The notes beneath the pieces are model-generated. The model had not been told where the DNA came from. It saw nothing but the letters and a program-made list of their open reading frames with translations, and made no database searches. This document shows, one piece after another, positions 12,346-64,000 of a stretch of 64,000 bases of DNA. The translations under genes and the position numbers were made by a program. Source of the stretch: Lanius collurio (taxonomy: Eukaryota > Chordata > Aves > Passeriformes > Laniidae); assembly GCA_020086605.1 (NCBI GenBank), contig JACBWW010000044.1, forward strand, positions 6,378,202 through 6,442,201, written 5' to 3'. The first letter of the stretch is position 1; each line of letters begins with the position of its first letter.

Positions 12346-13200
12346 TGTTATAAATGTGTCAAAATTCATAAGAAATTAAATGATATCAGGATTGGTTTTA
12401 AGTGTAAAATATATTAGATTATACATAGGATATATTAGACTGTACCTATATCCAAAAATGTTATGCTTGGAATGTGCCTTGGCATGTTCCCTGGCATCTC
12501 GCTCAGAGTTACAGATTACTTCTCCTGAGGGTAACATTTGCATTTGAAGCACGGGGCAGACCTTCGCAGGAGAAGCTTTCAAGCACCCATCATCAGGAAG
12601 TCAGATATCCATCTGGCACATCAATCTATTCCAAATCCACTCTGCCCTTGGAAAATCCTTTTTCCATCTGAAAGGAGCAACAGATATGATCATCTAAGTT
12701 TCTGTTCCTCCCTGGACCATGCTGATGAATGGACCTCTTACCTAAGACTCTTCATTTTAATTACACAAGGGGGTTCCTGGAAACATCAACATCTGAATGG
12801 ACCCCTTACTAGAAACACAAGAAGAGTTCCTGGAAATATCAACCAAAGACACAAAAGAGTTCCTGGAAACATCAACATCTGAACAAACCCCTGATCTCTG
12901 GACCAGAGGACCATAGAAGACAAGATGAATATGAAAGAGACAAAGGATTCTCTAGCCAGAGGCAGGAAAAACAGTATAAAAACCAGACTCAGAAGATGTG
13001 CACTGCCTACCCGAACTGCTGGTGTTCAGGGCTGTGTATGTGTCACCCAGGGTCAAGAACCTAGGCTTGGCCCTGCCGTTTTATAGTGGCTATTCAAAAT
13101 TGTCAATTTGATCATAAAATAAATTCTGTTTGTTTTTATATTAATAATTTGGCTCATGCAATTTATTAATTCGATTTAATTGGCAGTTTCATTTATAACA
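12346..13200 (+). mobile_element. solo LTR, family A, copy 1
   Basis: The element starts TGTTATAAATG and ends CATTTATAACA, giving an inverted 11-bp terminus and the canonical TG..CA ends. It has a TATA box (TATAAAA, 12975-12981) and a polyadenylation signal (AATAAA, 13118-13123) in the right order for a + strand LTR. Flanks read TCCA(T) on both sides, consistent with a 5-bp target duplication that has lost one T. No internal retroviral sequence is attached. Two further copies lie in the window (20313-21078 reversed; 63756 onward), confirming a dispersed family. This copy is about 89 bp longer than copy 2 because a unit beginning GTTCCTGGAAA is present three times (about 12773, 12826 and 12859) rather than once. 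Confidence 0.85.
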
Positions 13201-16200
13201 TCCATGATTTATTTTTGGTCAAAGGACATTTCACCTCATCAATACATTGGAGTAAGAGATTGTCAACAAGACAGGGAGTGTCAGAAATCTGATCCTTTTT
13301 ATTACTTTTGTTTCAACACTGAATTAATTTTTGTAGGCAGCTACCAGAACAGGAGCACATGCTTGTAGAAAGACCTGGTAAAGCTGTGTTGCAGTAGTAA
13401 ACACATTAATTTTCAGTCATTCATGGAGCCACTTCTGAAAAACTCTGGGAGCAACTAAACATTTGTAAATACATGGCTGAGCAGACACAGGACGCTGCTG
13501 TTAACAGAATGCTGCTCGTTTCATTAGCATTTGCATCTGGTCTTCAAATAAATAAGTGTATTCAAGCTTGATGTGTGGCTAGAGCTACAGATCCAAATGG
13601 CACCACTGATACCTTTAGCAACAGCTTGAGGTCTGAGCAGGTCCGCTGTTCAAGATTCTTAGTTTGGTTCATCTTTTTTCCTCAGGGATGTAATAAATAC
13701 ATCATACTTGGAAAGAAGAAATAAAAGGCAACTCACCATGGCAGCGTATTCTTGTGTTTGCTGTTACTGGGGATTCAGCATTAAAGTACTTCAGGGTTTG
13801 TCAGGCATTATTTGCAAGGTTTAAGAGGGTGAAAAATACTACAGAAACAATTGTAAACCAGGGTAAAAATAATGAATTATGCCACACTGAGAGGGCAGTT
13901 ATTCCACCACTGCATCTGGCACCACTGATATCTGCGTGGCAGACTCACCAGGGAGGAGTATGATGGAGAGCCAGACCTCTTCTTATTTGCATCAGTGAAA
14001 GGAGTACTGCTGGCTTCAATGGTGCCAGAGACTAAAAATTCAGTCATTCCTACAGCCAGTCCCTGTAGGCTTGGATTTTGAGGTTTTTCAGGTCTTTTTA
14101 GAGATTATTTTGTACCTATGGAAAGGAGTTAATGAGTTCCCAAGGCTTTTAGTTGGACCTATTGTTCACACTTTGAATTCAATTTTACAGGAAATAGAAA
14201 AGAGTGTCATTTTTTCTCATACACTAATCTTTCCACAATATGGAGATCCAGTTCACTTCTTTGGGTCAGTTTTTGAGTCATCATGTTATAAATATTTGGG
14301 TTTTTTCCCCAACTGTATAGTTAATATAAATATATAGATTTTATAACAATGAGTATTGGCAATTTTCTTGATGGCTCAGACATGTAACTACCAGTTTATC
14401 CAATGTTTGGTGTATACAGGAAAGGGATGTTAAATATGTTTAATAATTTAATGTAATTAAAGTCGGGAAGAAATTTTTCCAATAACAAAGGCACAGTCTG
14501 AGAAGGAATAAATTCAAACTGTTAGAGAGGTATTTCTATTAACTGCAAACTCATCAATCTGACTCACTTGGTGCAACGAAGTCACAAAGACACAAGTAAC
14601 TTTACAGTTTCTACCTGTATTTTTGCTTTTATGTATAAGCCAAGACAAGTCAAAAGAAATCCATAACAAGACTTAGTCAATAACACTTTTTTTTTCCCTG
14701 TGAAACGGAGAGCTTTTTCTTAGCTTAGCATAATTGTGTAGTGTGAGACCTGTTGTTCCCTATCTCTGCATTGAGGGTTAATTAATAATAAAAATGAGTT
14801 GCTGGTGTCGAATGAACCCTGGAATTGCAGCTCTGGGTGTAGGGGGAGGTCAAAGGCCCTTGGCTTCAGACAGCTCACCAGCCATCAACTCCTTGTAATT
14901 GAAATAAAATTGTCTTTAAATGAGCTGGGTTCATGCATAACAGAAAACACAACCACATCCCACCACCACCACCATGTATCTCTGGAATGACATACAGCAA
15001 CTTTAGATATTAGGTGGAACTGAAGATTTGAGTAACAGACTTTCATCAGCACCCATGCGAAGATAAATCCATATGAATTCATCGATATCAAACTCCTCCT
15101 TGATACCATACTCCTACCAAAGCTCTTGGGATGCTGATGGGTCATCTGAAGCTGGCAAGACATCCCCAAACTGTCAGATTTCAGATCTCAAGAGCAGAAG
15201 AGTGAGCACCATGCCACAGGACGTTTGTGTGTATCAATTTTGATCTTACCCTTCTGATGAATGAGTTTAACAACTGTATCATTTTAGCTGTGTGTTAACA
15301 GTGTTGCAGCTGGGCTAACATTATTCATTGGTAAGAGTGCAATCCTTAATTAGTGGAACAATTATTTTGCGTATTAGGTGTGTTTGCTTGGCTCACATAA
15401 GGTGCAAAACTTGTAGAGAACAAATTAGTGGAAAATGTCAACAACCTTAGCTGTAATTTGGACACAACAAATAGGCTTCAGGTGGAGTGAGTTTGTCTGC
15501 ATACTTATGTTGGATGATTTTATAAAGTTCAACAACTTTATTTATAGGAAATACTCCTGAGGAATTTTCACTTGACAAATTATGTTACCACTTAACTCAT
15601 GAAGCAGAGACCTTCATAAGAGACAGCAAGAACAACAGAACCATCAAAAAGCCCCACTCCCACATTGGGAAAGAATAGGTGTGAAGCTGCAGATTAAATT
15701 GCAATGTATGAATGTAGGACACCCTGATTTGGGGAGGAATGTAAGGTGGTTTGGGATTAAGCCTAGACCAAAGGTCACCCTAACCCTGGTTTGCCACCTA
15801 GCCCAGCTTGCTAAGAATAGTTAAGGAGGGGCAGCTGCTGAAGACAAGGCCATGGAAGGGAATGGAATCTCTCCCCCAATTGCAGATATCTCTGATTCTT
15901 GAAAAGGGTGGGACAGAGCCTAAGACTCCCTTCTTCACAATCCAGGCTGAGGCAGGACATTTCAGAGGCTTCTGCAGCCTGTGGAGGGAGGAGGGAAGCT
16001 CCAACTCTGGTCCTAAAGCACCACCAAGGTTGAATCAAGGTCAGAACCAGCACCTCTGAGTCCTGACAAGTTGTAACTGATGGAATCAAGCCTGAGTCCT
16101 AAATGAGTGGTTGCCAAAGCCTAAACTCACTCTTAGGCATGACACAAAGCTGGCAAATGCACAGTGTACTTGTACCCCTATAGTGCTCATACTGTCTGTC

Positions 16201-19382: not shown

Positions 19383-19683
19383 TGTTGTAGTGCGGGGAAT
19401 CCTTACAATATATAAGACAGCGATGGACTTGGAAGGAAAGATGAAGCAATATTTCTTTAGATGTTCAGGGATTATTTTATTCCTCCAGCTGCATGGGTGG
19501 AGTTCCCGGGCCAACCCCAGTCATGGGACCCTGCTCTCTTCTACCCGGGCCTGGGCACACCCAAACCACCCAACCAGGAACGGGTATAGGGCACAGGTGA
19601 CATGGGGACAGGGACAGGGACAGACCTGTACCCTGCAGAGTCCCTCCCCCCAGGATTTCAGAGAGAGGCACCTCCACAATTCA
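19383..19683 (-). repeat. 3' LTR of the Y-box provirus
   Basis: 301 bp. On the - strand it begins TGAATTGTGG immediately after a polypurine tract and ends CACTACAACA. It contains an AATAAA (in GAGGAATAAAATAATC, -). It is nearly identical to 22370-22673, differing at about 11 positions plus a 3-bp indel (ACAATATATA versus ATAACAATATATA). Confidence 0.9.
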
Positions 19684-19695
19684 CCCTTTCTTTTT
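19684..19695 (-). promoter_or_regulatory. polypurine tract of the Y-box provirus
   Basis: On the - strand AAAAAGAAAGGG abuts the TG of the 3' LTR, where a retrovirus primes plus-strand DNA synthesis. It fixes both the LTR edge and the orientation of the provirus. Confidence 0.85.
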
Positions 19696-19896
19696 AAATA
19701 AAGAACATTGGAAAATACAGTTGGATAAACAACAAAACATTTTCAAAGGAAAGGGAGCCACTATCTTGCATCCCCAGATATCCAAACAGATTTTCTTTGG
19801 AGCATCAGAAGGCAGACAGGACTTGAGCATGCTTCAGATGGAAGCTGAGGAAGGGATTTTCCTTTTTGTACCTGTTGGAATCTTAGAAAATGATGG
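19696..19896 (-). other. 3' internal tail of the Y-box provirus, origin unknown
   Basis: AT-rich sequence between the Y-box segment and the polypurine tract. It could be the captured 3' untranslated region or leftover retroviral 3' sequence. No env motif was seen. Confidence 0.5.
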
Positions 19897-20312
19897 TTAA
19901 TTTCTTCCCTCCCTCCTTTTCATCCCCCCCATTGGCATTGCAAAGGGATTAATGGCAAATGAAAACGACTGGTTTTGTGAGGGGAGCCAGAAAGTGAAAT
20001 TTGGGCTGGGCATATATGGGGGATAAAGGGGCATGGGATAAATGGGGAAGGTGGGATAGGGGAAAGGATAGGGATTATGGGGATATTGTCTAGCATATCT
20101 ACTGCCTTTGATGGGGCACCCCCAGGACCTGTAACACAGGAGGCCTGTGGGGCCCTTCCTTCCTTGCACAATTTTAAATTCGACTCTTTCTTCTTCTACT
20201 AAGCTTGGAACATCACTTTTTGGGGTTCTTTTTTACAATAGCAGATTTATGGACAAAAATACTTTCTCCAGTATTGTTTTTCAACAAGAAACCGTAATTT
20301 TTCTTTACATTA
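19897..20312 (-). pseudogene. Y-box protein pseudogene, second half of cold-shock domain and C-terminus
   Basis: This continues the domain interrupted at 21083. On the - strand the frame reads an RNP1-like box (KNYGFLLK, about 20284-20304) and an RNP2-like box (IFVHKSAI, about 20237-20260), the nucleic-acid-binding strands of cold-shock domains. It then hits a TGA at 20213-20215. A different frame continues with the domain's last strand (RVEFKIVQG) and a segment matching the Y-box motif after the domain (VTGPGG, then GSRYA), with another small shift between these two. The C-terminus is not the usual alternating basic/acidic tail. It is a Tyr/Pro-rich run (PYPFPYP, IYPMPLYPPYMP) ending at 19897. 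Y-box proteins bind mRNA and DNA; this copy is disrupted. Confidence 0.8.
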
Positions 20313-21078
20313 TGTTATAAATGATACTGCCAATTAAATCGAATTAATAAATTGCATGAGCCAAATTATTAATATAAAAACAAACAGAATTTATTTTATG
20401 ATCAAATTGACAATTTTGAATTAGCCACTATAAAACGGCAGGGCCAAGCCTAGGTTCTTGACCCTGGGTGACACATACACAGCCCTGAACACCAGCAGTT
20501 CGAGTAGGTAGTGCACACCTTCAAGGTTTCTGAGTCCAGTTTTTATACTGTTTTTCCTGCCTCCGGCTAGAGAATCCTTTGTCTCTTTCATATTCATCTT
20601 GGCTTCTATGGTCCTCTGGTCCAGAGATCAGGTGTCTGTTCAGATGTTGATGTTTCCAGGAACCCCCTTGTGTAATTAAAATGAAGAGTCTTAGGTAAGA
20701 GGTCCATTCATCAGCATGGTCCAGGGAGGAACAGAAACGTAGATGATCATATCTGTTGCTCCTTTCAGATGGAAAAAGGATTTTCCAAGGGCAGAGTGGA
20801 TTTGGAATAGATTGATGTGCCAGATGGATATCTGGCTTCCTGATGATGATGGGTACTTGAGACCTCTCTGGTGGAGGTGCGAAGTTCTGCCTGTGCTTCA
20901 GATGCAAATGTTATCACTGAGAAGGGTAACCCGTGACTCTGGCTGGGCTACCAGGGAACATGCCAAGGCACATTCCAAACATAACATCTTTGGATACATG
21001 TACAGTCTAATATCTCTTATACTTAAAATCAACCTTGATACCATTTAATTTATTATGAATTTTGACTCATTTATAACA
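20313..21078 (-). mobile_element. solo LTR, family A, copy 2, nested in the Y-box pseudogene
   Basis: 766 bp with TGTTATAAATG..CATTTATAACA termini, flanked by a perfect 5-bp target duplication CATTA (20308-20312 and 21079-21083). It is a reversed copy of the element at 12346-13200, with one rather than three GTTCCTGGAAA-type units. Removing it together with one CATTA leaves the cold-shock-domain frame continuous across the site, so it inserted after the Y-box capture. Confidence 0.95.
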
Positions 21079-21083
21079 CATTA

Positions 21084-21560
21084 TACCATTTTACAGTTCC
21101 AAAAACCCTAGCAGCGATAACCTTTTCATTTTTCCAAGTTCCTTTCTTCTTGCTTTCACTTTTGGTTTTGCTCACTCTTGCATCAGAGCTGCCGCAGCCA
21201 GGACCACCAGGGCTGGAGCCGCTAGCGCTTTCCTGTTGCAGGGTCTGGACTCCTCGGGATCATGTTTGGGGCCGTGCAGGTCCGGTCTGGCCGTGCTGCT
21301 GCACGCTGACCCTGCCGGCTGCTCCACCTTCGGCCACTTCTGCACCGCTGTTTGGCGCTCTGCTCACTTCTCCTCTGGAGCTCTGCGTGACTGCTGCTCC
21401 ACGCTTTCCGGGCTTTCCCGCGGCTGCATGGCTGCGCCCTGTGAGGCGTTCACGTGTGCGCGGCTTCTTATCACTGGCGCTGCCACCGCTCCTGTCAGCT
21501 GTGTGGCCGTCGGCTAGCACGGTTCCCTTCTCGCCCCCACACCCCTCTGGCTCTGCTCAG
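21084..21560 (-). pseudogene. Y-box protein pseudogene, N-terminal region and first half of cold-shock domain
   Basis: On the - strand the frame ends with EKVIAARVFGTVKWYN just before the nested LTR. This matches the start of vertebrate Y-box cold-shock domains, with the conserved Lys-Val-Ile and Gly-Thr-Val-Lys-Trp. Upstream is a Gly/Ser/Ala-rich stretch (SGSSPGGPGCGSS, then a Lys-rich linker), as in the low-complexity N-terminus of Y-box proteins. Earlier in the same frame is a Gly/Ala/Arg-rich region interrupted by a TGA near 21260. The sequence is GC- and CpG-rich, unlike its AT-rich neighbours, as expected of 5' sequence from a CpG-island gene. In vertebrate Y-box genes the domain is split by introns. 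None is seen here, so the source was spliced RNA. Which Y-box paralogue it came from cannot be decided by eye. Confidence 0.8.
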
Positions 21561-21950
21561 CGTGGCTCACCACGGTCACCATAGCGACTGCCACAATCAC
21601 CGCTGCCTTTCTCGCTGTGGGGCTCAGACCATCACTCACTACATGGTGTGGGGCAGCCATTGCCAGGTCGTGCCTCATCCGCCACTGCCCTCACTGCTGC
21701 CTCTGGGGGAACACCGCCGGGCCTGTGCCACTGCCCTGCTCCTGGCTCCACTCCTGCCGCCTCCACTCTCGCCGCTGGCTCTGCTCCCGCCGTGCCTGGC
21801 CTCACTGGCTCTCCCACACATGGGAGATCCCTCACCACCACCCGCAATGCACTAGGCGCCCATGGCTGGGGCCGTGCAGTCTCCGAGGTGGCGAAGGAGC
21901 CCGCTGCAACGCGCGCACTGCTCAGCCATGTGTTCACTGCTGATACAGCA
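21561..21950 (-). other. GC-rich segment joining gag to the Y-box sequence
   Basis: Ala/Gly/Pro-rich in the gag frame, which continues from gag to a TGA at 21632-21634. A second TGA follows in the same frame before 21520. Composition changes abruptly near 21950 from AT-rich gag-like to CpG-rich, so the capture junction probably lies there. It may be the 5' untranslated or N-terminal coding sequence of the Y-box mRNA, or a low-complexity gag linker. Confidence 0.5.
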
Positions 21951-22261
21951 GCGGGACACAGCCAATATTGCTCAACAATCTCTGAAATCAGGTAATATTC
22001 ACAGAAATAGTCTTGCATCAGCACGTTTTTTGATTTGGAAATTAACTGTGTCCAAACATTCTTCCAAAAGTCCTTGGTAAGAATCAAATCCCAAGAAACA
22101 CAGAAGAAGTTTTTAAACAGCCATGCCAAAAAGTGTCTTAGCTCTTTCTGAGTTTGAATTAAGCTAATATCTACATATTGCTGTTTGAGAACCTTTTTAA
22201 GTTTAAGGTAAATGTCTCTTTGTGGTTCGGACAGCCATGAGTCCTTCCATGAGTCCTCCAT
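21950..22261 (-). pseudogene. gag: gag matrix-like segment (partial)
   Basis: From an ATG at 22261 the - strand reads about 100 residues resembling the N-terminal matrix domain (p10-like helical domain) of beta-type avian ERV Gag: LSEPQRDIYLKLKKVLK, then KELRHFLAWLFKNF and TKDFWKNVWTQLI. This domain normally directs Gag to the membrane for assembly. It lies 108 nt downstream of the 5' LTR, as expected for gag. No capsid, nucleocapsid (CCHC) or protease sequence follows. The frame runs into GC-rich sequence and shares its phase with the cold-shock-domain frame. The identification is from the helical pattern, position and family resemblance. Confidence 0.7.
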
Positions 22262-22349
22262 TGCTCAGAGATGGGACAGCAAAATGAAAGTAAGAAGAGA
22301 TATCCAGAGTTACTCACGAATCACCAAATTATCTTCTCCAGGGATCATT

Positions 22350-22367
22350 TGCCCGCGTTCTCCACCA
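22350..22367 (-). promoter_or_regulatory. putative primer-binding site
   Basis: On the - strand TGGTGGAGAACGCGGGCA lies two bases inside the 5' LTR. The TGG start and position are those of a retroviral primer-binding site. The matching tRNA was not identified. Confidence 0.55.
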
Positions 22368-22369
22368 TT

Positions 22370-22673
22370 TGTTGTAGTGCGGGGAATCCTTATAACAATA
22401 TATAAGACAGCGATGGACTTGGAAGGAAAGATGAAGCAATATTTCTTTAGATGTTCAGGGATTATTTTATTCCTCCAGCTGCATGGGTGGAGTTCCCGGG
22501 CCAACCCCAGTCACGGGACCCTGCTCTCTTCTACCCGGGCCTGGGCACACCCAAACCACCCAACCAGGAATGGGTATGGGTCACACATGACATGGGGACA
22601 GGGACAGAGGCAGACCCGTACCCTGCAGGGTCCCTCCCCCCAGGATTTCAGGGAGAGGCACCTCCACAATTCA
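22370..22673 (-). repeat. 5' LTR of the Y-box provirus
   Basis: 304 bp, the direct partner of 19383-19683, with TG..CA ends and an AATAAA on the - strand. It is followed on the - strand by the putative primer-binding site and gag, which sets the provirus orientation. Confidence 0.9.
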
Positions 22674-27919: not shown

Positions 27920-28827
27920 TGTCTTGGTTTGAAAAGACAGATGTCTGTTAAGGAAGACAGGAGCCTCCCTTGAGGTGAAGGATGCAACCCCCCTTCTCTC
28001 TGAATTATTATAAATTTGGAATTAAGGGGCTTTCAGGCAAAAATATAAGGAATAGGAATAACAGTTCTTTACTAAAATACAGATGTATAAACAGGCAAAC
28101 AAACAACAATAACTATAGTGGTGACAACAAACAGAAGCACAAACCCAGTGCAGCCTCTCTCGGCTGTCAGGCCCTTTTCCCCTTTGGTGCAGTGCCAGTC
28201 ACAGCCAGCAGGGGCGCTGGCGGCTCCTGGTGAGCAGGGCAGGTGCGATGGTTCTCCCGCGGCTGCAGGGGGCGCTCCGGAGCGAGCTCGGGGAGCACGG
28301 AGCAATGGCGGATTAGATCTCGGGAAAGAGGGATGGAGAAAAGGCTTCACAAACCTCCCTGGGCAGCTGATCCTGGGGTTCTTCCAGCAGAAAGGAAAAA
28401 ACGGCAGGAAAACCCGCAGTGCTGACGAGAGAGTCTCTCCTGTCTCCACACCAAGTCTCGAGTTCCGCTGAAGCAGTGGCTCTGTAGAGAAGGTCTCGTC
28501 TTCCTCTGAAGGTCCAGTGGTGATGTAGAAGGGTCTGGTCTTCCTCTGAGAATCCAGTGGAAAAGGCTGCTTGTGGTGTTCAAAATTTCCCCTTATATCC
28601 AGGCTGGAAGGCTTGGTTCCTCCCTCTGGGCGGAGCATCTCACAATGGGTGATATAGTCTTATCAGTCATGCGGTGATGGCCCATTAGCAGGAGATAGTA
28701 TAGGAGAGATAAAAGACTCTGCCCCACCTGGTGTCAACAGCTGGCCCATTAACAGAAGATAGCCTCATGAGCTTATCAGGGATGAGTCATGAGGGAGGTG
28801 GGGAGCACTGTCCCACCAGTTTGAACA
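27920..28827 (-). mobile_element. LTR, family D, copy 1
   Basis: On the + strand it starts TGTCTTGGTTTGAAAAGACAG, so on the - strand it ends ..CAAACCAAGACA. A TATA box sits on the - strand (GGATATAAGG, about 28589-28600). A CpG-rich core (28200-28330) is shared almost exactly with the copy at 30691-31618. The right end is placed at CCAGTTTGAACA but no target duplication confirms it. Near-repeats of GGCCCATTA(A/G)CAG..GATAG occur at 28678 and 28742, inside the U3-like part. Confidence 0.7.
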
Positions 28828-30690
28828 GTTTATGAAGATGGTGACAGAATACAGACTTTTGGGTACATTTTACATTGCAACCCAGGACACCAGATTTATC
28901 AAACTTTCTGAGAAGTCATTGGGATTTTTTTGTCTGAGTACTGACTGTCAAGATTCTTCTAATGCATATTGCCCTATGGATCTGTTGACATTGGCACTGG
29001 TGGGAAGATGTGGGTGTGCTCAGCCTGCAACCACCACAGTCTAAGACAGGATCAAAAATGGCTGAGATATATCTATATCTAATTTATATCTGTATCTATC
29101 AATTCTATGAAAATGAGACTGATCTAAATTGTGATACAGGCCGTGTGCCACTTGCATCTGCAGAGCTGCAGAAAGGACACACAACAGAGTCAAACTGATT
29201 CAGTACTGACAAAGGACAATGCCTACACAGAGAACTAATATCTTGGCTGATTAAAAATTAAAGCAGTTGAAACTTCTCCAATAACTGAACATAACTCTTG
29301 ATCTGTGCCACAAGCCACAAGTCAGGCTGGCTGCCTGATTCGGTGTCTTGCCTCCAACAGCAGCCTGTGGTCATCAGCAGGTGCAGGATGTCCATTGTGT
29401 TAGAAGGTATCTTAATGATGGTTTAGCTGGAAGTTTACATTCTTTTTCAAGTGTTCCAGATTTTATGGTGCAGCTTTTTGTGTTTTCACTGTCTACCTTT
29501 TATCACGTGAAGAACAACTAACCCAGGAAGGACAATAGGGGGGACATTATTTTTATATTTCAGTAGTAGGAGAAATCTGAATTTGTTTCTGGTGCTTCAG
29601 GTTCTAAGCTGGTTGTAAAATTTGAAGTTGAAGGAAACTTCCTTGCATGTTATTAGGTTCATTTGTAAGGAGAGTGAAAATCATTCCAGCTTTTGTTGCA
29701 AAAATCATTCTGCATTTTGTTATTTTGGGAATTTATGTATGTCTCAGTACAGAAAGGTGAGCCTTCTGATAACCAAGACAGGACAGAAGGGTGTCACGGG
29801 AGGTGCCTTGAGGCATAATGTGGTGCTTAGCTTGAAATATGTAACCCGTATGCCTGCTGAGGAACAGCATTTTTCTTCCTTTTCCTCTTTTCCATCCTAG
29901 GAAACATTTATACAGAATATCGGCAGTCCCAGACATTCGCAAAAGATAGAATTAGATACGAAAATGTTCTTTAGGTTCCAGACCCATGGCAGGAAATGTG
30001 AAAGGGTGCAGCAAAACCTGAAATTAACCCTCACAAAAGGAGTTACACTGAGTGGGATTGATGGTGGTGCTTATGCAGTTTGTCATCCAGGTGAGAGGGT
30101 GACAGTGCCACGGTGTCCCCCAGGCACTCATAATTTTTTAATCCCTCAAGCCTACATATATGAGGTAAATGCACTCAGAGGCTGTAATGATCCTCTGAAT
30201 TTCTTGGCTTTTTTTTACTGGGCCTTGAAAATGAGACAGACATCACTGAAGAAGTTTTTACCTGTCAGCATCTTCCTATGGAAGTTGTACTCATAACACA
30301 GAGACTGACTCTACGTGTTGATAAGGAAAACAAAATTTAGCTCTCATCTCTTCAAAAGGAAAGCCACATTTCTTCCACAGCAACTGGCAATCTTCACTTT
30401 GTCTTGACTTTCTGAGATGTGTAAAAGTGTTGGTTTTGTCCAAAATGTGGTTGTGGGAACTCAGCACTTCTGTTTAACGAATCAATGTGATTATATGGTA
30501 GCTTTTTATTGTTTAAAATACACATCACCTCTTTGGGCATCATGTGAGAACTCTCATATCTTCCAATTTGTTCAATAATAGCTACTTATCACCTCTTTTG
30601 TGTATTAGGCTTACTTATCCTAGATTTACACATTATACTACTTTTACATACTTATACATAACCTATATGGTTCACTTACTTATACTTACT
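28828..30690. other. non-coding DNA between the two family D LTRs
   Basis: No primer-binding site, gag, pol or env motif was seen next to either LTR. The two copies are therefore probably independent insertions rather than the ends of one provirus. Confidence 0.55.
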
Positions 30691-31618
30691 TGTCTTGGTT
30701 TGAAAAGACAGATGTCTGCTAAGGAAGACAGGAGCCTCCCTTGAAATGAAGGATGCAACCCCCTTCTCTCTGAATTATTGTAATTTTGAAATTAAGGGGC
30801 TTTCAGGCAAAGATATAAAGAACAGGAATAACAGTTCTTAACTAAAATACAGACATATAAACAGGCAAACAAACAACAATAACTTTAGTGGTGACAGCAA
30901 ACAGAAGCACAAACCCAGTGCAGCCTCTCTCGGCTGTCAGGCCCTTTCCCCGCTGGTGCAGTTCCAGTCACAGCCGGCAGGGGCGCTGGCGGCTCCCGGT
31001 GAGCAGGGCAGGTGCGATGGTTCCCCCGCGGCTGCAGGGGGCGCTCCGGAGCGAGCTCGGGGAGCACGCGGTAATGGCGGCTTAGATCCTGGGAAAGGGA
31101 TGGAAGAAAGGCTTCACAAACCTCCCTGGGCAGCTGATCCTGGGGTCTGTCTGGGCTCTCCTGTCCAGGCAGGCTGGAGCAGCAGTAGGAGCACAAATTC
31201 TGGGTGGCAGGCGAGACGTATCGAGCTGCGGAGCTGTGGTAGGAAATCCTCGGAGGTCTCGGCAGGCAGGACGGGCAGGGCTGCAGAGTAGCGAAGGCTG
31301 AGGCAGCAGAATCTGCAGCTCAGCTCCCAGCGAGGCAGGGAAGGACAGGTTTTGGATCCTGGGGTTTTCTCCAGCAGAGAGGAAAAACAGCAGGAAACCC
31401 GCAGTGCTGACAAGAGTGGTCTCTCCCCCGTCTCCACACCGAGTCCCAAGCCCCGAGTCCCGAGGCACACTCCGGTGAAAAACAGTAGCCCAGAGTCGGC
31501 TCCTCCTCTCCATGGCCAGTTCTTTTGTTTCTCCCAAGTACCCAGCAATTTGTTGCCTCGGTAACATGTATGGGAGAAAATTCCTCAAGAGAAAAAGGGA
31601 ACTCCCAAAACCCCAACA
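30691..31618 (-). mobile_element. LTR, family D, copy 2
   Basis: Begins TGTCTTGGTTTG and ends CCCCAACA on the + strand. It shares about 430 bp of near-identical sequence with 27920-28350, then carries about 219 bp absent from copy 1, bounded by two GATCCTGGGGT words (31136-31146 and 31355-31365). Beyond that the U3-like part differs from copy 1. No clear target duplication. CpG-rich core at 30950-31080. Confidence 0.7.
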
Positions 31619-52034: not shown

Positions 52035-52119
<85 letters not shown>

Positions 52120-52578
52120 CCCTTCCTCCCTTCCTCCCTTCCTCCCTTCCTCCCAAACCTTCCCGAACCTTCCCGAACCTTCCCTTCCCGAACCTTCCCG
52201 AACCTTCCCGAACCTTCCCGAACCTTCCCTTCCCGAACCTTCCCTTCCCTGGATTCCTGGATTCCTTCCTTCCTGGAATCCTTCCTTCCTGGAATCCTTC
52301 CTGGAATCCTTCCTTCCTGGAATCCTTCCTTCCTTCCTTCCTTCCTTCCTTCCTTCCTTCCTTCCTGGAATCCTGGAATCCTGGAATCCTTCCTGGAATC
52401 CTTCCTGGAATCCTTCCTGGAATCCTTCCTTCCTTCCTGGAATCCTTCCTGGAATCCTTCCTGGAATCCTTCCTTTCTTCTTCCCTTTCCCTTTCCCTTT
52501 CCCTTTCCCTTTCCCTTTCCCTTTCCCTTTCCCTTTCCCTTTCCCTTTCCCTTTCTCTTTCCCTTTCCTTCCCTCTCC
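51991..52578. repeat. compound pyrimidine-rich satellite
   Basis: Four adjoining tandem arrays lie on the + strand. First is a pure pyrimidine tract of TTTC/TTCC/CCCT units (51992-52153). Then comes a 10-mer array of CCTTCCCGAA (about 52154-52240), then a 12-mer-like array of TTCCTGGAATCC with a pure CTTC block inside (about 52241-52465), and finally a TTTCCC hexamer array (about 52466-52578). The long open frames on the - strand (Lys/Glu/Gly-rich) are only translation of these repeats and are not genes. Confidence 0.97.
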
Positions 52579-57991: not shown

Positions 57992-58281
57992 TGCCGTGGC
58001 CCGAAGCGGGGGGAGAAATCACACCAATATGATGCATGTAACAAGCTCCATTTATTGTTTTCCAGTACGGCAAATTATACAGTTTTTTGATTCCGTACAC
58101 GCGATCATGCAACCCCCGATTGGTCTATCCCTAAAAGCACGCTCGCTGCACGCACCCTCAAGCTACTTTCTATTGGCTATATGTAAAACGCGTAACTTCC
58201 CTATTGGCCCTAGGTCCGTAAGCTCCATGTCCCTTGGTCTAAAGCCTTTCATACTGTTTCCGAATCCCTAGGGCCCCAACA
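57992..58281 (-). repeat. 3' LTR of the env-bearing provirus
   Basis: 290 bp. On the - strand it starts TGTTGGGGCCCTAGGG right after the polypurine tract and ends ..CACGGCA. U3 carries three CCAAT motifs on the - strand (GGCCAATAGG, AGCCAATAGA, GACCAATCGG). A TATA-like TGTATAATTTG lies at about 58070-58081, and AATAAA at 58051-58056 lies only about 20 bp downstream of it. The AATAAA therefore falls at or before the expected start site, implying a very short R as in alpharetroviruses. The env stop codon (58268-58270) lies inside this LTR. Confidence 0.92.
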
Positions 58282-59599
58282 TCTCCCCCTCTTTTTCAAA
58301 TACCGCAGTAGCTAGGCTCTCCATTTGCTTCAATAGCAGGCGTATTAAGCAGGGCCCAAATGCACAAGCTAGCAGCAAAAGCAGTATCGGCACTCCAAAT
58401 GTCAATAATAAGCTTCGCATCCAACCTCCCAGGCCCAAGCCTTGTAGCCAATTATCAAGGCCTGATTCTCTTTCTTTCAAATCATGGAGGTGTAGCCTTA
58501 AGTCCTCTATCTTCTTATGTATTGACTCTGAATGATCAGATAAATTAAGGCAACACATTCCTTCAAAATCTTGACATCCATGGCCATGGGCTAACAACAA
58601 AAAATCAATGGCGGCCCTATTCTGCAGGACGGCGTGGTTCACACTTTGAACATCTTGGGACATCATATCTAAGATAGTAGATGTAGTATTCAATTCTTGT
58701 TTTGTCCAACACCCTATTTGTTTGGCTAATTTCATGGCCTTAGAGGCTGAAATTCCATGGAGGACCATAGAAACAATTATACATGTGAAATCTTTCCAAA
58801 ATGTTGGGTCTCCTACATCACAACAATCTAATTCATGAATACCTTGCCGTTTTCGATGGCTGTCCCTTTCCCACTGCATTAGGACTGTCAGGTTGGGGTG
58901 AAACACAGCTAGCTTTCCTAGATAACAAGGTCCTCCTTGAGGGCAGGACGGTATGCCATTCCAAGCTCGTTCTCCACAGATGAGAAAAATGCCTGGTGGC
59001 AGTGCTCGTGGTTCTGTGATGTTGCTGCCGTTACAGCCAGTATATACATATCCAAGAACCGTGCTATGTTCGAGCGAGGAATCGAGGGTGGCCCATTCCT
59101 TCCGGTTTCTATTAAGATTTCTCTGCTCTATTGGGAGGAAGGAAAACCAGCCCCCTCCAGAGGAGGATGCATTAGAAGCATTCATGTTGCCAAAAAGATC
59201 TAATTCTTCCGGGGGAGATGTCAATGTAATGTTTAGGGATTGAACCAGGAAGCATTGCACAGCACCCTCATGCTGGCTAGGGGTAAACCCTACATAATGG
59301 TGAGCGGAGTTGTTAAGTGCCTTCCATGGTGTCGTTTTCGTGCTATCATTGACATACTTTTTAAACTCAGGAGCATGCCAAATGGGGACCCCTATCAAGC
59401 ATGTACGAAATGGGTCTCCTACGCCTCCTAGGGCTAAACAAAAGGCTGGCTGGCCTGTGCGATTCGCTATCATTAGCCAAATGTTATCTCTAGGTGCGGC
59501 AAAGCGTACAAAGCTGCTAGAACTATTTAATATAAGCATCGGGATGCACACCACCCATTCGATCATGGTGCCTACAAATTTGTTCGCGTATAAACACAA
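58268..59599 (-). CDS. env: intact alpharetrovirus-like envelope glycoprotein
   Basis: 443 codons, no stop. Env mediates receptor binding and membrane fusion. Residues 12-30 form a plausible signal peptide. Residues 39-70 (NIWLMIANRTGQ, then GDPFRTCLIG) are typical of alpha/beta surface subunits, and PPGIFLICGERAW with GGPCYLGK near 202-230 is strongly alpharetroviral. A basic SHRKR (247-251) marks the surface/transmembrane boundary. The transmembrane part has an internal, cysteine-flanked fusion-peptide-like segment (about 259-297), the LQNRAAIDF stretch (325-333), a CX6CC motif (C342, C349, C350), a membrane span (about 396-419) and a short tail. About 11 N-glycosylation sequons are present. 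The surface subunit is shorter than in leukosis viruses (about 250 residues). The first ATG is uncertain: in related viruses the start is supplied by splicing from gag, which is absent here. Confidence 0.9.
   Translation of the reverse strand: MCLYANKFVGTMIEWVVCIPMLILNSSSSFVRFAAPRDNIWLMIANRTGQPAFCLALGGVGDPFRTCLIGVPIWHAPEFKKYVNDSTKTTPWKALNNSAHHYVGFTPSQHEGAVQCFLVQSLNITLTSPPEELDLFGNMNASNASSSGGGWFSFLPIEQRNLNRNRKEWATLDSSLEHSTVLGYVYTGCNGSNITEPRALPPGIFLICGERAWNGIPSCPQGGPCYLGKLAVFHPNLTVLMQWERDSHRKRQGIHELDCCDVGDPTFWKDFTCIIVSMVLHGISASKAMKLAKQIGCWTKQELNTTSTILDMMSQDVQSVNHAVLQNRAAIDFLLLAHGHGCQDFEGMCCLNLSDHSESIHKKIEDLRLHLHDLKERESGLDNWLQGLGLGGWMRSLLLTFGVPILLLLLACAFGPCLIRLLLKQMESLATAVFEKEGEMLGP
58282..58296 (-). 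promoter_or_regulatory. 3' polypurine tract
   Basis: On the - strand AAAAAGAGGGGGAGA directly precedes the LTR. It is the plus-strand primer source and at the same time encodes the last residues of Env (KEGEM). Confidence 0.9.
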
Positions 59600-59837
59600 T
59601 AACTGTAGTCTTTTTCGCTACTTCAGCAAAAGCAAGCCCATGTTGCAAAAGATATGCTAGGCGACTAATCTCTAAGCGATCAACATTTTCAAACAGTTCA
59701 TCTTCCCATAGCTGATGTGGCTGTGTGTCTTGATCTAAATCACCCCCTAGCCACAAAGTAAGAACCTCCTCAGGGAATGCAGAGGGCCAGAGGTCTCTGC
59801 ACTCTGGGCATCCAATAAGATGAGGCCCTAACCACAC
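59523..59837 (-). CDS. overlapping open frame upstream of env, possible env leader
   Basis: 104 codons in another frame, overlapping the first 77 nt of env. It is acidic and leucine-rich (FPEEVLTLWLGGDLDQD, then RLEISRLAYLLQHG) with no Arg-rich nuclear signal, so a Rec/Rev-like role is not supported. It could be a disrupted env leader, with a frameshift separating it from the surface domain, or an accessory frame. A splice-acceptor-like CTCTGTCTCCTTAG (-, at 59986-59999) sits about 150 nt upstream. Confidence 0.35.
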   Translation of the reverse strand: MWLGPHLIGCPECRDLWPSAFPEEVLTLWLGGDLDQDTQPHQLWEDELFENVDRLEISRLAYLLQHGLAFAEVAKKTTVIVFIREQICRHHDRMGGVHPDAYIK

Positions 59838-60017
59838 AGGGCCCTGTGAGTGTCTCTAGGGCCGTCTGCACTGCCTGCACTGTATCACAAGGTCTATTAT
59901 TCTCTTACAACAGCCACAGGTAGTGGCACAAAGTGCGGCAAGCCTAGTTCTGACACACGCATTACGACAGCATCTGCTTGCTCCTCTAAGGAGACAGAGT
60001 GCCGGGTACGAGATCAG

Positions 60018-60743
60018 CTATAACCCGGGTGAGGGCTTCACAGAGGGGTTGCAGCCGTCGCCATCATCGCTCTTGGCGTCTTCAGCGTCCTGACTCCTCT
60101 TCCTTTTCTCTGACGGAAGCCACGGCTTCACCCACTTGGCTGGTACCCACCGCGCCTGCTCGTCACCTGCAACGACACAAGCATATCCCCTTCCCCAGGT
60201 TAATAACCGACAGGGACCCTCCCACACTGCTTGATCTGGGTACCACGTGAAGATATAAATGTTCTGTTTAGACCAGTCATTTCTGTTTCCCTTGCTGTGT
60301 ATGTCCATAGGTATAGTCCCTTCCTCAACTGGGTTGAGCCGATTTAACACATAAAGAGCTTTTTGGAGGATATTGTGCGGGGACATCTCCCCCTCTTTTT
60401 TCAAAACGAGGACCAGGCGCTTGATGTCTTGGTGTCGTCGCTCAACAATAGCTTGCCCTGTGCTATTGTAGGGTACACCTGTTTTATGAACAATTCCCCA
60501 GTCAGAGAGGAATCGCGCACACGCCTGGCTACGATATGCGGGCCCGTTGTCTGTCTTTATCTGGTCAGGTCGCCCTAGTGCTGCAAAGGCAGCTTGCCAG
60601 TGGTGCTTAACCGCTGAAAAGGCAGTAGAGGTTGTTGCGGTAGCCCAAGTAGCCTTGCTATAGGTATCAACTGAGACATGTACAAATTTCAGCTGCCCAA
60701 AAGAGGCAATCTCAGTGACATCAGTCTGCCAAATTTGCCGCGG
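60018..60743 (-). pseudogene. pol: integrase catalytic core and C-terminal domain
   Basis: The frame is open from just after a TAG (60744-60746) to the pol stop. It carries the DDE triad in the expected contexts (WQTDVTE, KTDNGPAY, GQAIVERRHQ) and an SH3-like C-terminal DNA-binding domain (GPCRLLTWGRGYAC, RWVPAKWVKPW). It ends in a charged tail rich in Asp, Glu and Lys. Integrase joins viral DNA ends to host DNA. Apart from the nonsense codon just upstream, this part looks undamaged. It contains the internal polypurine tract. Confidence 0.9.
60386..60401 (-). promoter_or_regulatory. internal polypurine tract (central PPT candidate)
   Basis: On the - strand AAAAAAGAGGGGGAGA is the same as the 3' polypurine tract except for one extra A. 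The match extends into the flanks (TTTG before, TGT after; 60383-60405 versus 58279-58300). It is read in the same frame relative to the tract, giving KEGEM in both integrase and Env. Confidence 0.7.
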
Positions 60744-61793
60744 CTACAGGCCGCGAGGACATGTACCGTAGGGTTGTAATGGTGCTATCCGTGCACAGTC
60801 TGGACACAAGGCCACAACAGTACGAGCTTGATCCTTGGTGATAGCAAACTGACGTTGTAATGCGCGTGCAGATTGGTGGAAAAATGCATGTGAGTCTGCT
60901 GCTTCTGCAAGGGGAGTTGTCTGAACGGCACCCGCTACAGCTCTATCTATAACTGCATTCCCTTCAGTCAGGATACCTGGAAGATTGGTATGGCTGTTTA
61001 CATGAGTAATCCAATATGGGTGTCTCTGTTGTTCAATTCTGTTGTGCAACTGTATTAACAGTGAAGCGATGTTTGGGTTAGCCACGTGTCCTAAAAAGGC
61101 AAGCTGAATGCAGGGCAGCAGGCCACGGACATATTGAGAGTCTACAACAAGGTTAATCAGAGGGTCTTGATGATTGGAAAAAGCCAGTAGAATTGCTTGC
61201 AGTTCTAACACCTGAACTGACACATGCTCTCTGTGTTTGACTACTGTATGCCATTGACCATTGCTGTGCCAGGCGTATCTGAAGTTTCTGGTCTTCCCAC
61301 TTGCGTCTGTGAAGAGTGTGATGGCTCCAGCAATGGGTGTCGTAGACACAAGAGGTCGCTCCTGAACATGTAAAGCAGTCCTAAAGAGTGGGTGTTTCGG
61401 GTAGTGGGTGTCTAGCTGCACCGAGGTGGTGGCAAGAGCGAACGTGATGCTTGCATACGCCCATTCCTCCATGAACTCAACTGTCTTCCAAGGGAGATAG
61501 AACTTGGTTGGTTCTACTCCAAATACCTGCCGTACACGTTTCCGTGCCTTGAGTAGTAGCAAACCGGTCGCTTCCGGCAGGGATAGCACTGAAGCCTGTG
61601 GAACACTCGCAGGGAAGACCCATTCAAGGATGTTCATTCCCGAGGCCACTGTTTGGATGATCACTGCTGCAAGGGCGTTGTGCCCCAAATGGAGGGCGAC
61701 GTGTACGGGACACTTAGGATGATAGTGATAAGTTTGTGTTGTCGCTAACTTCTGCTCTATTACCTCGAGTGCTCGCCGCGCTTGAGAGTTCAA
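60744..61793 (-). pseudogene. pol: RT connection, RNase H and integrase zinc-binding domain
   Basis: 349 codons between a frameshift (about 61790-61796) and a TAG (60744-60746). RNase H shows all four acidic residues: D163 (TDASG), E197 (LELQA), D218 (VVDSQYV), D283 (VIDRA). The integrase N-terminal zinc finger follows (H302, H306, C330, C333). The terminal TAG falls at the start of the integrase core, truncating the enzyme. RNase H would degrade RNA in RNA/DNA hybrids during reverse transcription. Confidence 0.9.
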
Positions 61794-62323
61794 GCCTCAG
61801 TGGGGTCTGCTAAATTTTTGAGCAGCTCTAACAATGGGGAAAGCTCCTAATTGGATATTCCACACCATGTCCGGATCCACTGGATATCTCCGACCAGTTT
61901 CTGTACGTCGTTTACATTGGCCACTACGTGGTGTAATTTCATTTTGTTTGGGCAGATCCGTGTCTCCGTAACTGTCATCCCCAGATAAGTCCAATGGGAG
62001 GTGCGCTGTACCTTTTCTTCTGCTATGGTTAGTCCAAACCTTTGTAGTGTAGTCCGGAGATCTGTCTCGTGCACCTCGGGCAGGGGCTTTTCAGTGGCTA
62101 TCAGAATGTCATCCATGTAATGGTAAACAATTGCCTGGCAATGGTCCTGCTTCCACACTTGCAGGGCCAGATCTACATACCACTGGCAAATTGTTGGACT
62201 GTTTTTCATACCTTGGGGTAGTACCGTCCATTCATAACGTTGTGTTGACCTGCTGTTGTTTATCTTGGGTATGCTAAAAGCAAATCGTTTGGTGTCATCA
62301 GGATGAAGTGGAATGCTGAAAAA
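61794..62323 (-). pseudogene. pol: reverse transcriptase palm/thumb segment with YMDD
   Basis: This frame continues RT after the frameshift at 62319-62323. It carries GMKNSPTICQ and the catalytic YMDD (about 62108-62119), then TSHWTYLGM and the thumb. It is stopped by TAG at 61847-61849. Recognisable pol reading (LSPLLELLK) continues in the same frame beyond that stop, until a TGA at 61790-61792 and a second frameshift. Confidence 0.9.
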
Positions 62324-63022
62324 CAGTCCTTCAGATCAATCACTAACAGATGCCGGTGTTGTGGTAAGGTGGCACGGGATGGAAGACCTGGCTGTAAGGC
62401 ACCCATATCATGCATTTTGTCATTGACTGCTCGCAGGTCGTGCAGCAGCCGCCATTTCCCAGATTTCTTTTTTATAACAAACACAGGGATATTCCAGTCA
62501 CTGGTGGAAGGCTTAATATGGCCCAGAGTCAATTGCTCTTGTACTAATGCTTCCAGGGGCTCTAACTTTTCAACTGGGAGAGGCCACTGAGCTACCCAAA
62601 CAGGATCATCGGATTTCCACTGGATCTTCATGACAGGTAGGTCCCTTATCTCAGTGACTGCCCCACAAAAGGGGGAGTCTGAAGCACTGCCCCCCCATTG
62701 TGCAAGCACGCCTCGGCCCAAAATCCATAACATGGTATCCATCACATATGGTCGTATTTCTGCTGTGTTCCCCTCTGCATCATGTACTGTGCACCATTCT
62801 TTGCTAATGTTGGTGACTGTACTCCCACCAATGCCCAGGATTTGGCCAGCAAGGCGCTCTAGAGTCCAATGAGGCGGCCAATTTCTTACAGGGATGATGG
62901 TGACATCAGACCCTGTATCTAACCTTACCTCGATCCATTCAGCTCCGTTTGGTCCCATCAATTTTTCTTGCCCTCGTGTAATGCGGACAGCATGCGTGGG
63001 ACACTGCAAAGATAGTAATGTT
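62319..63022 (-). pseudogene. pol: protease fused in frame to N-terminal reverse transcriptase
   Basis: One continuous frame. Protease has the aspartic active site DTGSD (D31 counting from the first Met at 63009), a GIGG flap (about 59-62) and ILGRG in place of the usual Gly-Arg-Asp/Asn. RT follows from about residue 135 with [31 protein letters not shown] and the first catalytic aspartate (VIDLKDC). It ends at a one-base frameshift in the T-run at 62319-62323. No dUTPase and no G-patch lie between protease and RT. The 5' end is the deletion junction with the LTR remnant, so the true N-terminus of protease and all of gag are missing. Confidence 0.9.
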
Positions 63023-63060
63023 GCCTTTCATACTGTTTCAGAATCCCTAGGGCCCCAACA
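63023..63060 (-). repeat. 5' LTR remnant (38 bp of U3)
   Basis: Matches the U3 start of the 3' LTR (58244-58281) with one mismatch, then joins directly to the protease region. The promoter boxes and R/U5 are gone. Confidence 0.92.
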
Positions 63061-63755: not shown

Positions 63756-64000
63756 TGTTACAGATGAGTCAAAATTCATAAGAAATTAAAGGATATCGAG
63801 ATTGGTTGTGAATGTAAGATATATTAGATTGTACATAGAATGTATTAGATTGCACCTATATCCAAACATGTTGTGCTTGGAATGTGCCTTGGCACGTTTC
63901 CTGGCATCTTGCTCAGAGTTACCAAACACTTCTCCCAAAGGTGAAATTAGCATCTGAAGTAAAGGCAAACCTAAAAGGAGAAGTAATCATGCATCCACCA
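63756..64000 (+). mobile_element. family A LTR, copy 3 (cut by window end)
   Basis: Starts TGTTACAGATGAGTCAAAATTC and follows the 5' part of the family A LTRs at 12346 and 20313 (reversed) to the end of the window. More diverged at its first bases. Whether it is solo cannot be seen. Confidence 0.8.

Follow-up and report, generated by a model that had tools for sequence, protein, structure and literature searches.

A provirus of 3.3 kb on the minus strand of a 64,000-nucleotide stretch of the Lanius collurio genome (contig JACBWW010000044.1, positions 6,378,202 to 6,442,201; the whole stretch is called the window here) encloses the cold-shock domain (CSD) of a Y-box protein between a pair of ~300-bp long terminal repeats (LTRs). 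We show that this locus is a decayed member of a multi-copy, non-autonomous endogenous retrovirus (ERV) family of ~2.5 kb with 6-bp target duplications, and that its gag, linker and CSD carry marks of purifying selection acquired during the spread of the family. The existence of the family, its single reading frame and the selection on it, taken alone, are in our judgement very probable.

The ERV family and its Y-box domain

The window's own genome (1.097 Gb) was searched with both DNA and protein queries. A 222-bp piece of the provirus (21079-21300) matched in all 40 scored alignments out of 896 candidates, with 86-100% identity and the window itself included, and the YB-1 CSD matched as a protein query in all 150 scored out of 1304 candidates. 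We mapped the best 28 of the 40 DNA matches and inspected some of the 150 protein matches. The order LTR, gag start, GC-rich linker, CSD, 3' region, LTR held for the parts found in 28 of 28 mapped loci; the linker (at least partly) and both CSD parts were present in every one, the 3' region in 27 and both LTRs in 22. The gag start was of the window's type in 17 loci and of a diverged type in 11, and a 5' block that had seemed unrelated in some copies turned out to be the diverged gag start. The two CSD parts abut in 27 of the 28, and the nested LTR that splits them is found in the window copy only (both strands were checked). Median element length, window copy excluded, was 2509 bp. Target duplications of 6 bp were present in 14 of 21 elements, plus one of 5 bp, compared with 0.42 and 1.52 for shuffled flanks.

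Kimura two-parameter (K2P) divergence of 21 LTR pairs had a median of 0.092 (range 0.055-0.134). Twenty more diverged loci were picked by hand, chiefly among the best of the 150 protein matches; 15 have an LTR pair (K2P 0.025-0.175, median 0.097), and the remaining five have a match to the 3' region of the family, to its LTR or to both. The mapped and the diverged sets have similar LTR ages, which does not show either one to be older. At one locus (L016), two inverted family copies lie inside 3.2 kb, the searched-for copy being broken after a short C-terminal part of the CSD.

The original prediction, made from the letters of the window, was of a Y-box sequence held between the two LTRs of one provirus; this is borne out by 96% LTR identity and by matches to YB-1, YBX2 and Pfam CSD. 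It had also claimed that pol and env are absent, and with the window's other ERV as query, a search that distant pol types could escape, neither was matched in the 63 loci fetched, some of which overlap. Capture of the Y-box sequence by the ERV is supported by its same placement in all 28 mapped loci; ERV copies without the insert, together with an insert bearing its own target duplication and poly(A) tail, would have pointed instead to a processed pseudogene, and the insert was there in 28 of 28, with no poly(A) run in the unit and a longest A-run of 6. The idea of a single acute transducing provirus is wrong: the locus belongs to a multi-copy, non-autonomous family with gag start, linker and CSD in one frame.

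The Y-box pieces of the window copy stand in the correct order, and each matches Y-box proteins separately. The piece ending EKVIAARVFGTVKWYN matches YB-1 (E 0.034), 20216-20311 matches YB-1 (E 7.9e-7) and Pfam CSD (4.1e-6), and 19900-20232 matches YBX2 (E 8e-4), its Pfam CSD value of 0.019 falling below the cut-off. The CSD is complete in other copies (Pfam 1.2e-23; Y-box chains 4.1e-40), where its contiguity fits an origin from spliced mRNA. Y-box chains outranked bacterial cold-shock proteins and LIN28 as matches to the ERV domain; a Lin28-type identity was ruled out, with Y-box chains ranking first. Searches of viral contigs and of Rfam, and a search of a protein database with the CSD piece as query, returned nothing informative. 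The family lacks the basic/acidic C-terminal tail of Y-box proteins: the ERV tail is rich in proline and tyrosine, and one of 36 comparisons between tail and host (L014-P0014) scored above all shuffles, the other 35 not.

From 47 loci we obtained 36 ungapped CSDs at 35 loci (one gave two), 12 loci being dropped for a broken or gapped domain. Split at 62.5% identity to YB-1, these form group A (n=19, 63-74%, mean 69%) and group B (n=17, 44-62%, mean 54%); the window CSD is identical to YB-1 at 48 of 90 positions. A tree of 89 columns placed the 36 ERV CSDs on one side of a branch with bootstrap 98 (99% of 200 bootstrap trees), which is the pattern that a single capture of a Y-box CSD would be expected to give; few forks were resolved, and one long-branched ERV copy adjoins the hosts. 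Tree and identity split disagree for two copies, L060 (62%) falling with the A side and L058 (64%) with the B side. The latter, a young element (LTR K2P 0.025) whose gag start is of the window's type, may represent a third lineage of recent origin. Outside the family, a superb starling protein annotated as hypothetical (P0105) is a diverged Y-box copy that may likewise have arisen by capture or retrocopying. Five of its 16 changes occur in the window CSD, which does not stand out from the mean share of 0.22, and common ancestry with it was rejected.

Gag start, linker and the start of the CSD share a common frame in the window copy, with three TGA codons interspersed. Between 21970 and 21079 this frame holds 3 stops, compared with 9 and 18 in the strand's other two frames and an average of 9.7 in shuffles (P 0.0115). 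Copies with an intact frame, which the original prediction had suggested looking for, exist: 499-509 codons are open in 10 of the 150 protein matches. In the three of these that were checked, a single frame opens at the gag Met, with a gag match in 3/3, and continues to a CSD near residue 367 and then the tail, placing the CSD in the last third of the fused frame. The gag start is modelled as helical (mean pLDDT 67.9) and has one relative, a protein on a 531-base contig (P0001) that is identical at 71 of 102 residues, ahead of the GC-rich part; short similarity extends past this block (shuffle P 0.011). Pfam, NCBIfam and PDB searches with gag and linker pieces returned nothing informative; no capsid or zinc-knuckle domain was among the Pfam matches of gag, linker, CSD and tail of two copies, and no zinc knuckle among those of the window pieces. 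Among tails of at least 35 residues, a YPx1-3L motif occurs in 15 of 17 from group A and 13 of 15 from group B, compared with ~3 in shuffles; the copies are related, so these counts represent few events. PPxY and P[ST]AP were in none of the tails scanned.

Selection on the coding parts

A stop was present in 5 of the 36 ungapped CSDs. In the true frame, the ratio of nonsynonymous to synonymous differences (pN/pS) was 0.34 within group A, 0.48 within group B and 0.47 between them, the lowest of the six frames in all three comparisons. The five wrong frames ranged from 0.45 to 1.27, the nearest being the frame of the opposite strand that shares third positions (0.45, 0.63 and 0.51). Medians of the corrected ratio (dN/dS) were 0.30, 0.45 and 0.34, and pN was below pS in 171/171, 134/136 and 323/323 pairs, respectively. 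An excess of third-position changes was found across 27 copies in gag (1.27, P 0.012), linker (1.14, P 0.024) and CSD (1.48, P 0.006), while the non-coding 3' control gave 0.93; codon phase was set from two copies agreeing at 573 of 612 columns.

The window CSD bears similar marks. Its changes are conservative beyond neutral drift (20/42 positive vs 29%, P 0.005), 16 of 38 changed residues recur among 119 natural homologues, each in two or more of them, where neutrality predicts 16-19% (P ≤ 0.0005), and of 36 near-invariant sites it retains 26, with 19.6 expected under neutrality (P ~0.008); that it is free of stops is not unusual under drift (P 0.17). Since the LTRs of the window copy are <4% apart, most of the divergence of its CSD is older than the present insertion. 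At the four positions that we take to be the YB-1 residues stacking on RNA, the contact residue is kept in 89-100% of the 36 copies.

Layout of the window provirus

The LTR pair of the window provirus is 96% identical over 280 nt, and the alignment counts 11 substitutions plus one 3-base gap in ~300 aligned bases. The neutral rate in birds is ~2e-9 per site per year, which together with these differences would put the insertion at roughly 9 million years ago. From 5' to 3' the provirus contains a primer-binding-site (PBS)-like sequence, TGGTGGAGAACGCGGGC, immediately internal to the 5' LTR; a gag-like open frame; a GC-rich stretch (64-69% GC per 150-base step from 21183 to 21932); the CSD; the Pro/Tyr-rich tail; the 3' region; and a polypurine tract (PPT), AAAAAGAAAGGG, directly upstream of the 3' LTR.

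Features of the window provirus, listed by position in the window
Feature	Position	Strand	Basis
3' LTR	19383-19683	-	repeat pair with 22370-22673; LTR matches terminate other copies
PPT adjoining the 3' LTR	19684-19697	-	sequence
3' region from Y-box tail to PPT, taken as non-coding	19698-19899	-	matched in 27/28 mapped loci; no third-position excess
Pro/Tyr/Phe-rich tail after the CSD, with YPxxL motif	19900-20080	-	open frames; tails of other copies
C-terminal two thirds of the Y-box CSD, not confined to a single frame in the window copy	20081-20311	-	Y-box and Pfam matches
Nested solo LTR of another family, splitting the CSD	20313-21078		CATTA at 20308-20312 and 21079-21083
N-terminal part of the Y-box CSD	21079-21136	-	YB-1 match
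Linker, mostly GC-rich, in the frame of gag and CSD (borders approximate)	21137-21960	-	3 in-frame TGA in the window copy
Gag-like start (first Met at 22261), predicted all-helical, matrix-like by position	21961-22261	-	relative P0001, 71/102 identical
Leader with PBS-like site adjoining the 5' LTR	22262-22369	-	matched in 17/28 mapped loci
5' LTR	22370-22673	-	repeat pair with 19383-19683

The nested solo LTR is an inverted relative of 12346-13201, and its family has three members in the window (12346-13201, 20313-21078 and 63756-63972), the second inverted with respect to the others. Elsewhere in the window, a second ERV on the minus strand (58271-63027) has protease, reverse transcriptase, RNase H, integrase and env (Avian_gp85 and TLV_coat matches), the Avian_gp85 match indicating an avian host. 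Another short pair of LTRs, each ~460 bp long and with ~2.3 kb between them, lies at 27920-31146, where a Pfam scan of two open reading frames found nothing convincing, and at 52079-52502 TTCC/CCTT and related units form a long array of simple repeats.

Proposed role, alternatives and known systems

In retroviral Gag the matrix comes first and the RNA-binding nucleocapsid stands near the end. We propose that an ancient retrovirus acquired a Y-box mRNA, possibly by template switching, and that the CSD came to occupy what would be the usual Gag position of the zinc-knuckle nucleocapsid. There it may bind the element's own RNA, and the fusion would act as a small Gag that collects this RNA and packages it into particles, with Pol supplied by a helper element; the YPxxL of the tail may recruit budding machinery. 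As a whole, this mechanism, in which a non-autonomous ERV family encodes a Gag-like protein ending in a captured CSD in place of the zinc-knuckle nucleocapsid and is mobilised by another element's Pol, is the explanation towards which we lean, with some reserve. The sharper statement that in at least 150 copies without an enzyme gene a host Y-box CSD has replaced the Gag nucleocapsid, and that the ~500-residue fusion uses helper-driven particles to package its own RNA, is more tentative, and we place it just short of probable. YB-1 is described as regulating the production of murine leukaemia virus (MLV) vector and mouse mammary tumour virus in an RNA-dependent manner and as supporting HIV; in the same source, YB-1 knock-down did not severely hamper MLV vector transduction (PMC6040738).

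Several observations weigh against this account or parts of it. The inspected flanks of the window copy show no target duplication, and the branch separating the ERV CSDs had an SH-aLRT (Shimodaira-Hasegawa-like approximate likelihood ratio test) value of only 44, which is weak. In each of the three comparisons the pN/pS interval of the true frame overlaps that of the best among the wrong frames, and the 3' non-coding control read as codons gave 0.83, 0.81 and 0.50, so that the group B value of 0.48 is by itself weak and not decisive. The tail lacks a codon-position signal (1.06, P 0.34), and the presumed RNA-contact residues rank 1st, 21st, 30th and 21st of 90 sites and are thus no outliers. 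Neither Pfam nor a fold search matched the gag start to a matrix profile or fold, so the basis for the label 'Gag' is where the start lies, its helix content and its relative P0001; where the original prediction had a putative PBS, a gag matrix start and a PPT in order, the order, the PBS- and PPT-like sites and a gag-like start stand, and a matrix identity is not confirmed by profile or fold. Lastly, the whole frame was intact in none of the 28 mapped loci.

Both this last count and the control comparison that gave 0.50 would suit a passive passenger, that is, a Y-box sequence captured once and amplified through the element's LTRs and packaging signal while its protein is inert, and elements that are non-autonomous need no coding capacity in order to spread. 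We regard this as improbable given the third-position excess in gag, linker and CSD and not in the 3' control, the lowest rank of the true frame in three comparisons, the ~500-codon frame retained in 10 of 150 matches and the recurrence of natural variants in the window CSD. Slightly less improbable, and still unlikely, is that the fused CSD serves mainly as a regulator rather than as a nucleocapsid substitute, acting on LTR transcription or on the translation or stability of mRNA from the element or the host. Such roles are described for host Y-box proteins (PMC7226217, PMC6040738); the gag-like fusion, the CSD in its last third and the YPx1-3L tails in both groups would better fit a Gag-like role.

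Host domestication, with selection arising from host use of LTR-driven Y-box copies, could draw on the existence of long open frames. The signal extends across many dispersed, LTR-flanked copies of both sequence groups, which points to selection during spread, and we consider domestication very unlikely. To a single event within one provirus, either an LTR-mediated retrocopy or a processed pseudogene, we give practically no weight: LTR-mediated retrocopies are known, including in chicken (PMC5408686), but the unit is common to all 28 mapped loci, the DNA and protein searches gave 40 and 150 scored matches, and this multi-copy unit without poly(A) refutes such an origin.

Among the known cargoes of retroviruses, growth and receptor genes predominate. 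That ERVs capture genes is established; for a Y-box cargo in retroviruses or ERVs, our searches of the open literature found no report, subscription papers and repeat libraries lying outside the search, and look-ups of the terms 'Y-box' and 'cold shock' gave no hit in the searchable text of five bird papers (PMC6523648, PMC5006616, PMC4272516, PMC11009239, PMC8310711). If the proposal is true, retroelements can rebuild a core RNA-packaging protein from host parts, and why YB-1 aids several retroviruses becomes testable in a natural fusion.

Like other ERVs, the family has LTR pairs (22/28), 6-bp duplications (14/21) and PBS- and PPT-like sites; of gag, pol and env it has a gag-like start only, and it is therefore non-autonomous. 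Its protein would resemble retroviral Gag in a matrix-like start, a nucleic-acid-binding domain in the last third and a late-domain-like motif, and differs in having a CSD in place of zinc knuckles; no capsid domain was recognised in the pieces scanned. Acute transducing retroviruses carry gag-onc fusions and depend on a helper. The family shares with them a gag start joined to a cell-derived coding sequence (a single frame in 3/3 copies checked) and a presumed need for a helper, whereas it is a multi-copy germ-line family with a Y-box cargo and no transforming cargo shown.

The ERVs of crocodilians that took up KIT-ligand or nectin3 (PMC4299795) are similar in that a host mRNA entered an ERV lineage, several copies exist and the captured gene is under purifying selection. 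In those viruses KIT-ligand is placed between pol and env, and nectin3 takes the place of env; in the present family the cargo, an RNA-binding domain, is joined to a gag-like start, and pol and env were not found. Like host YBX1/2/3, the other ERV copies have a complete CSD; their tail is Pro/Tyr-rich rather than basic/acidic. Finally, like the LTR-mediated retrocopies that arise by template switching (PMC5408686), the unit has LTRs on both sides of a host sequence without introns or poly(A); unlike them, the chimera has multiplied and has kept a selected reading frame.

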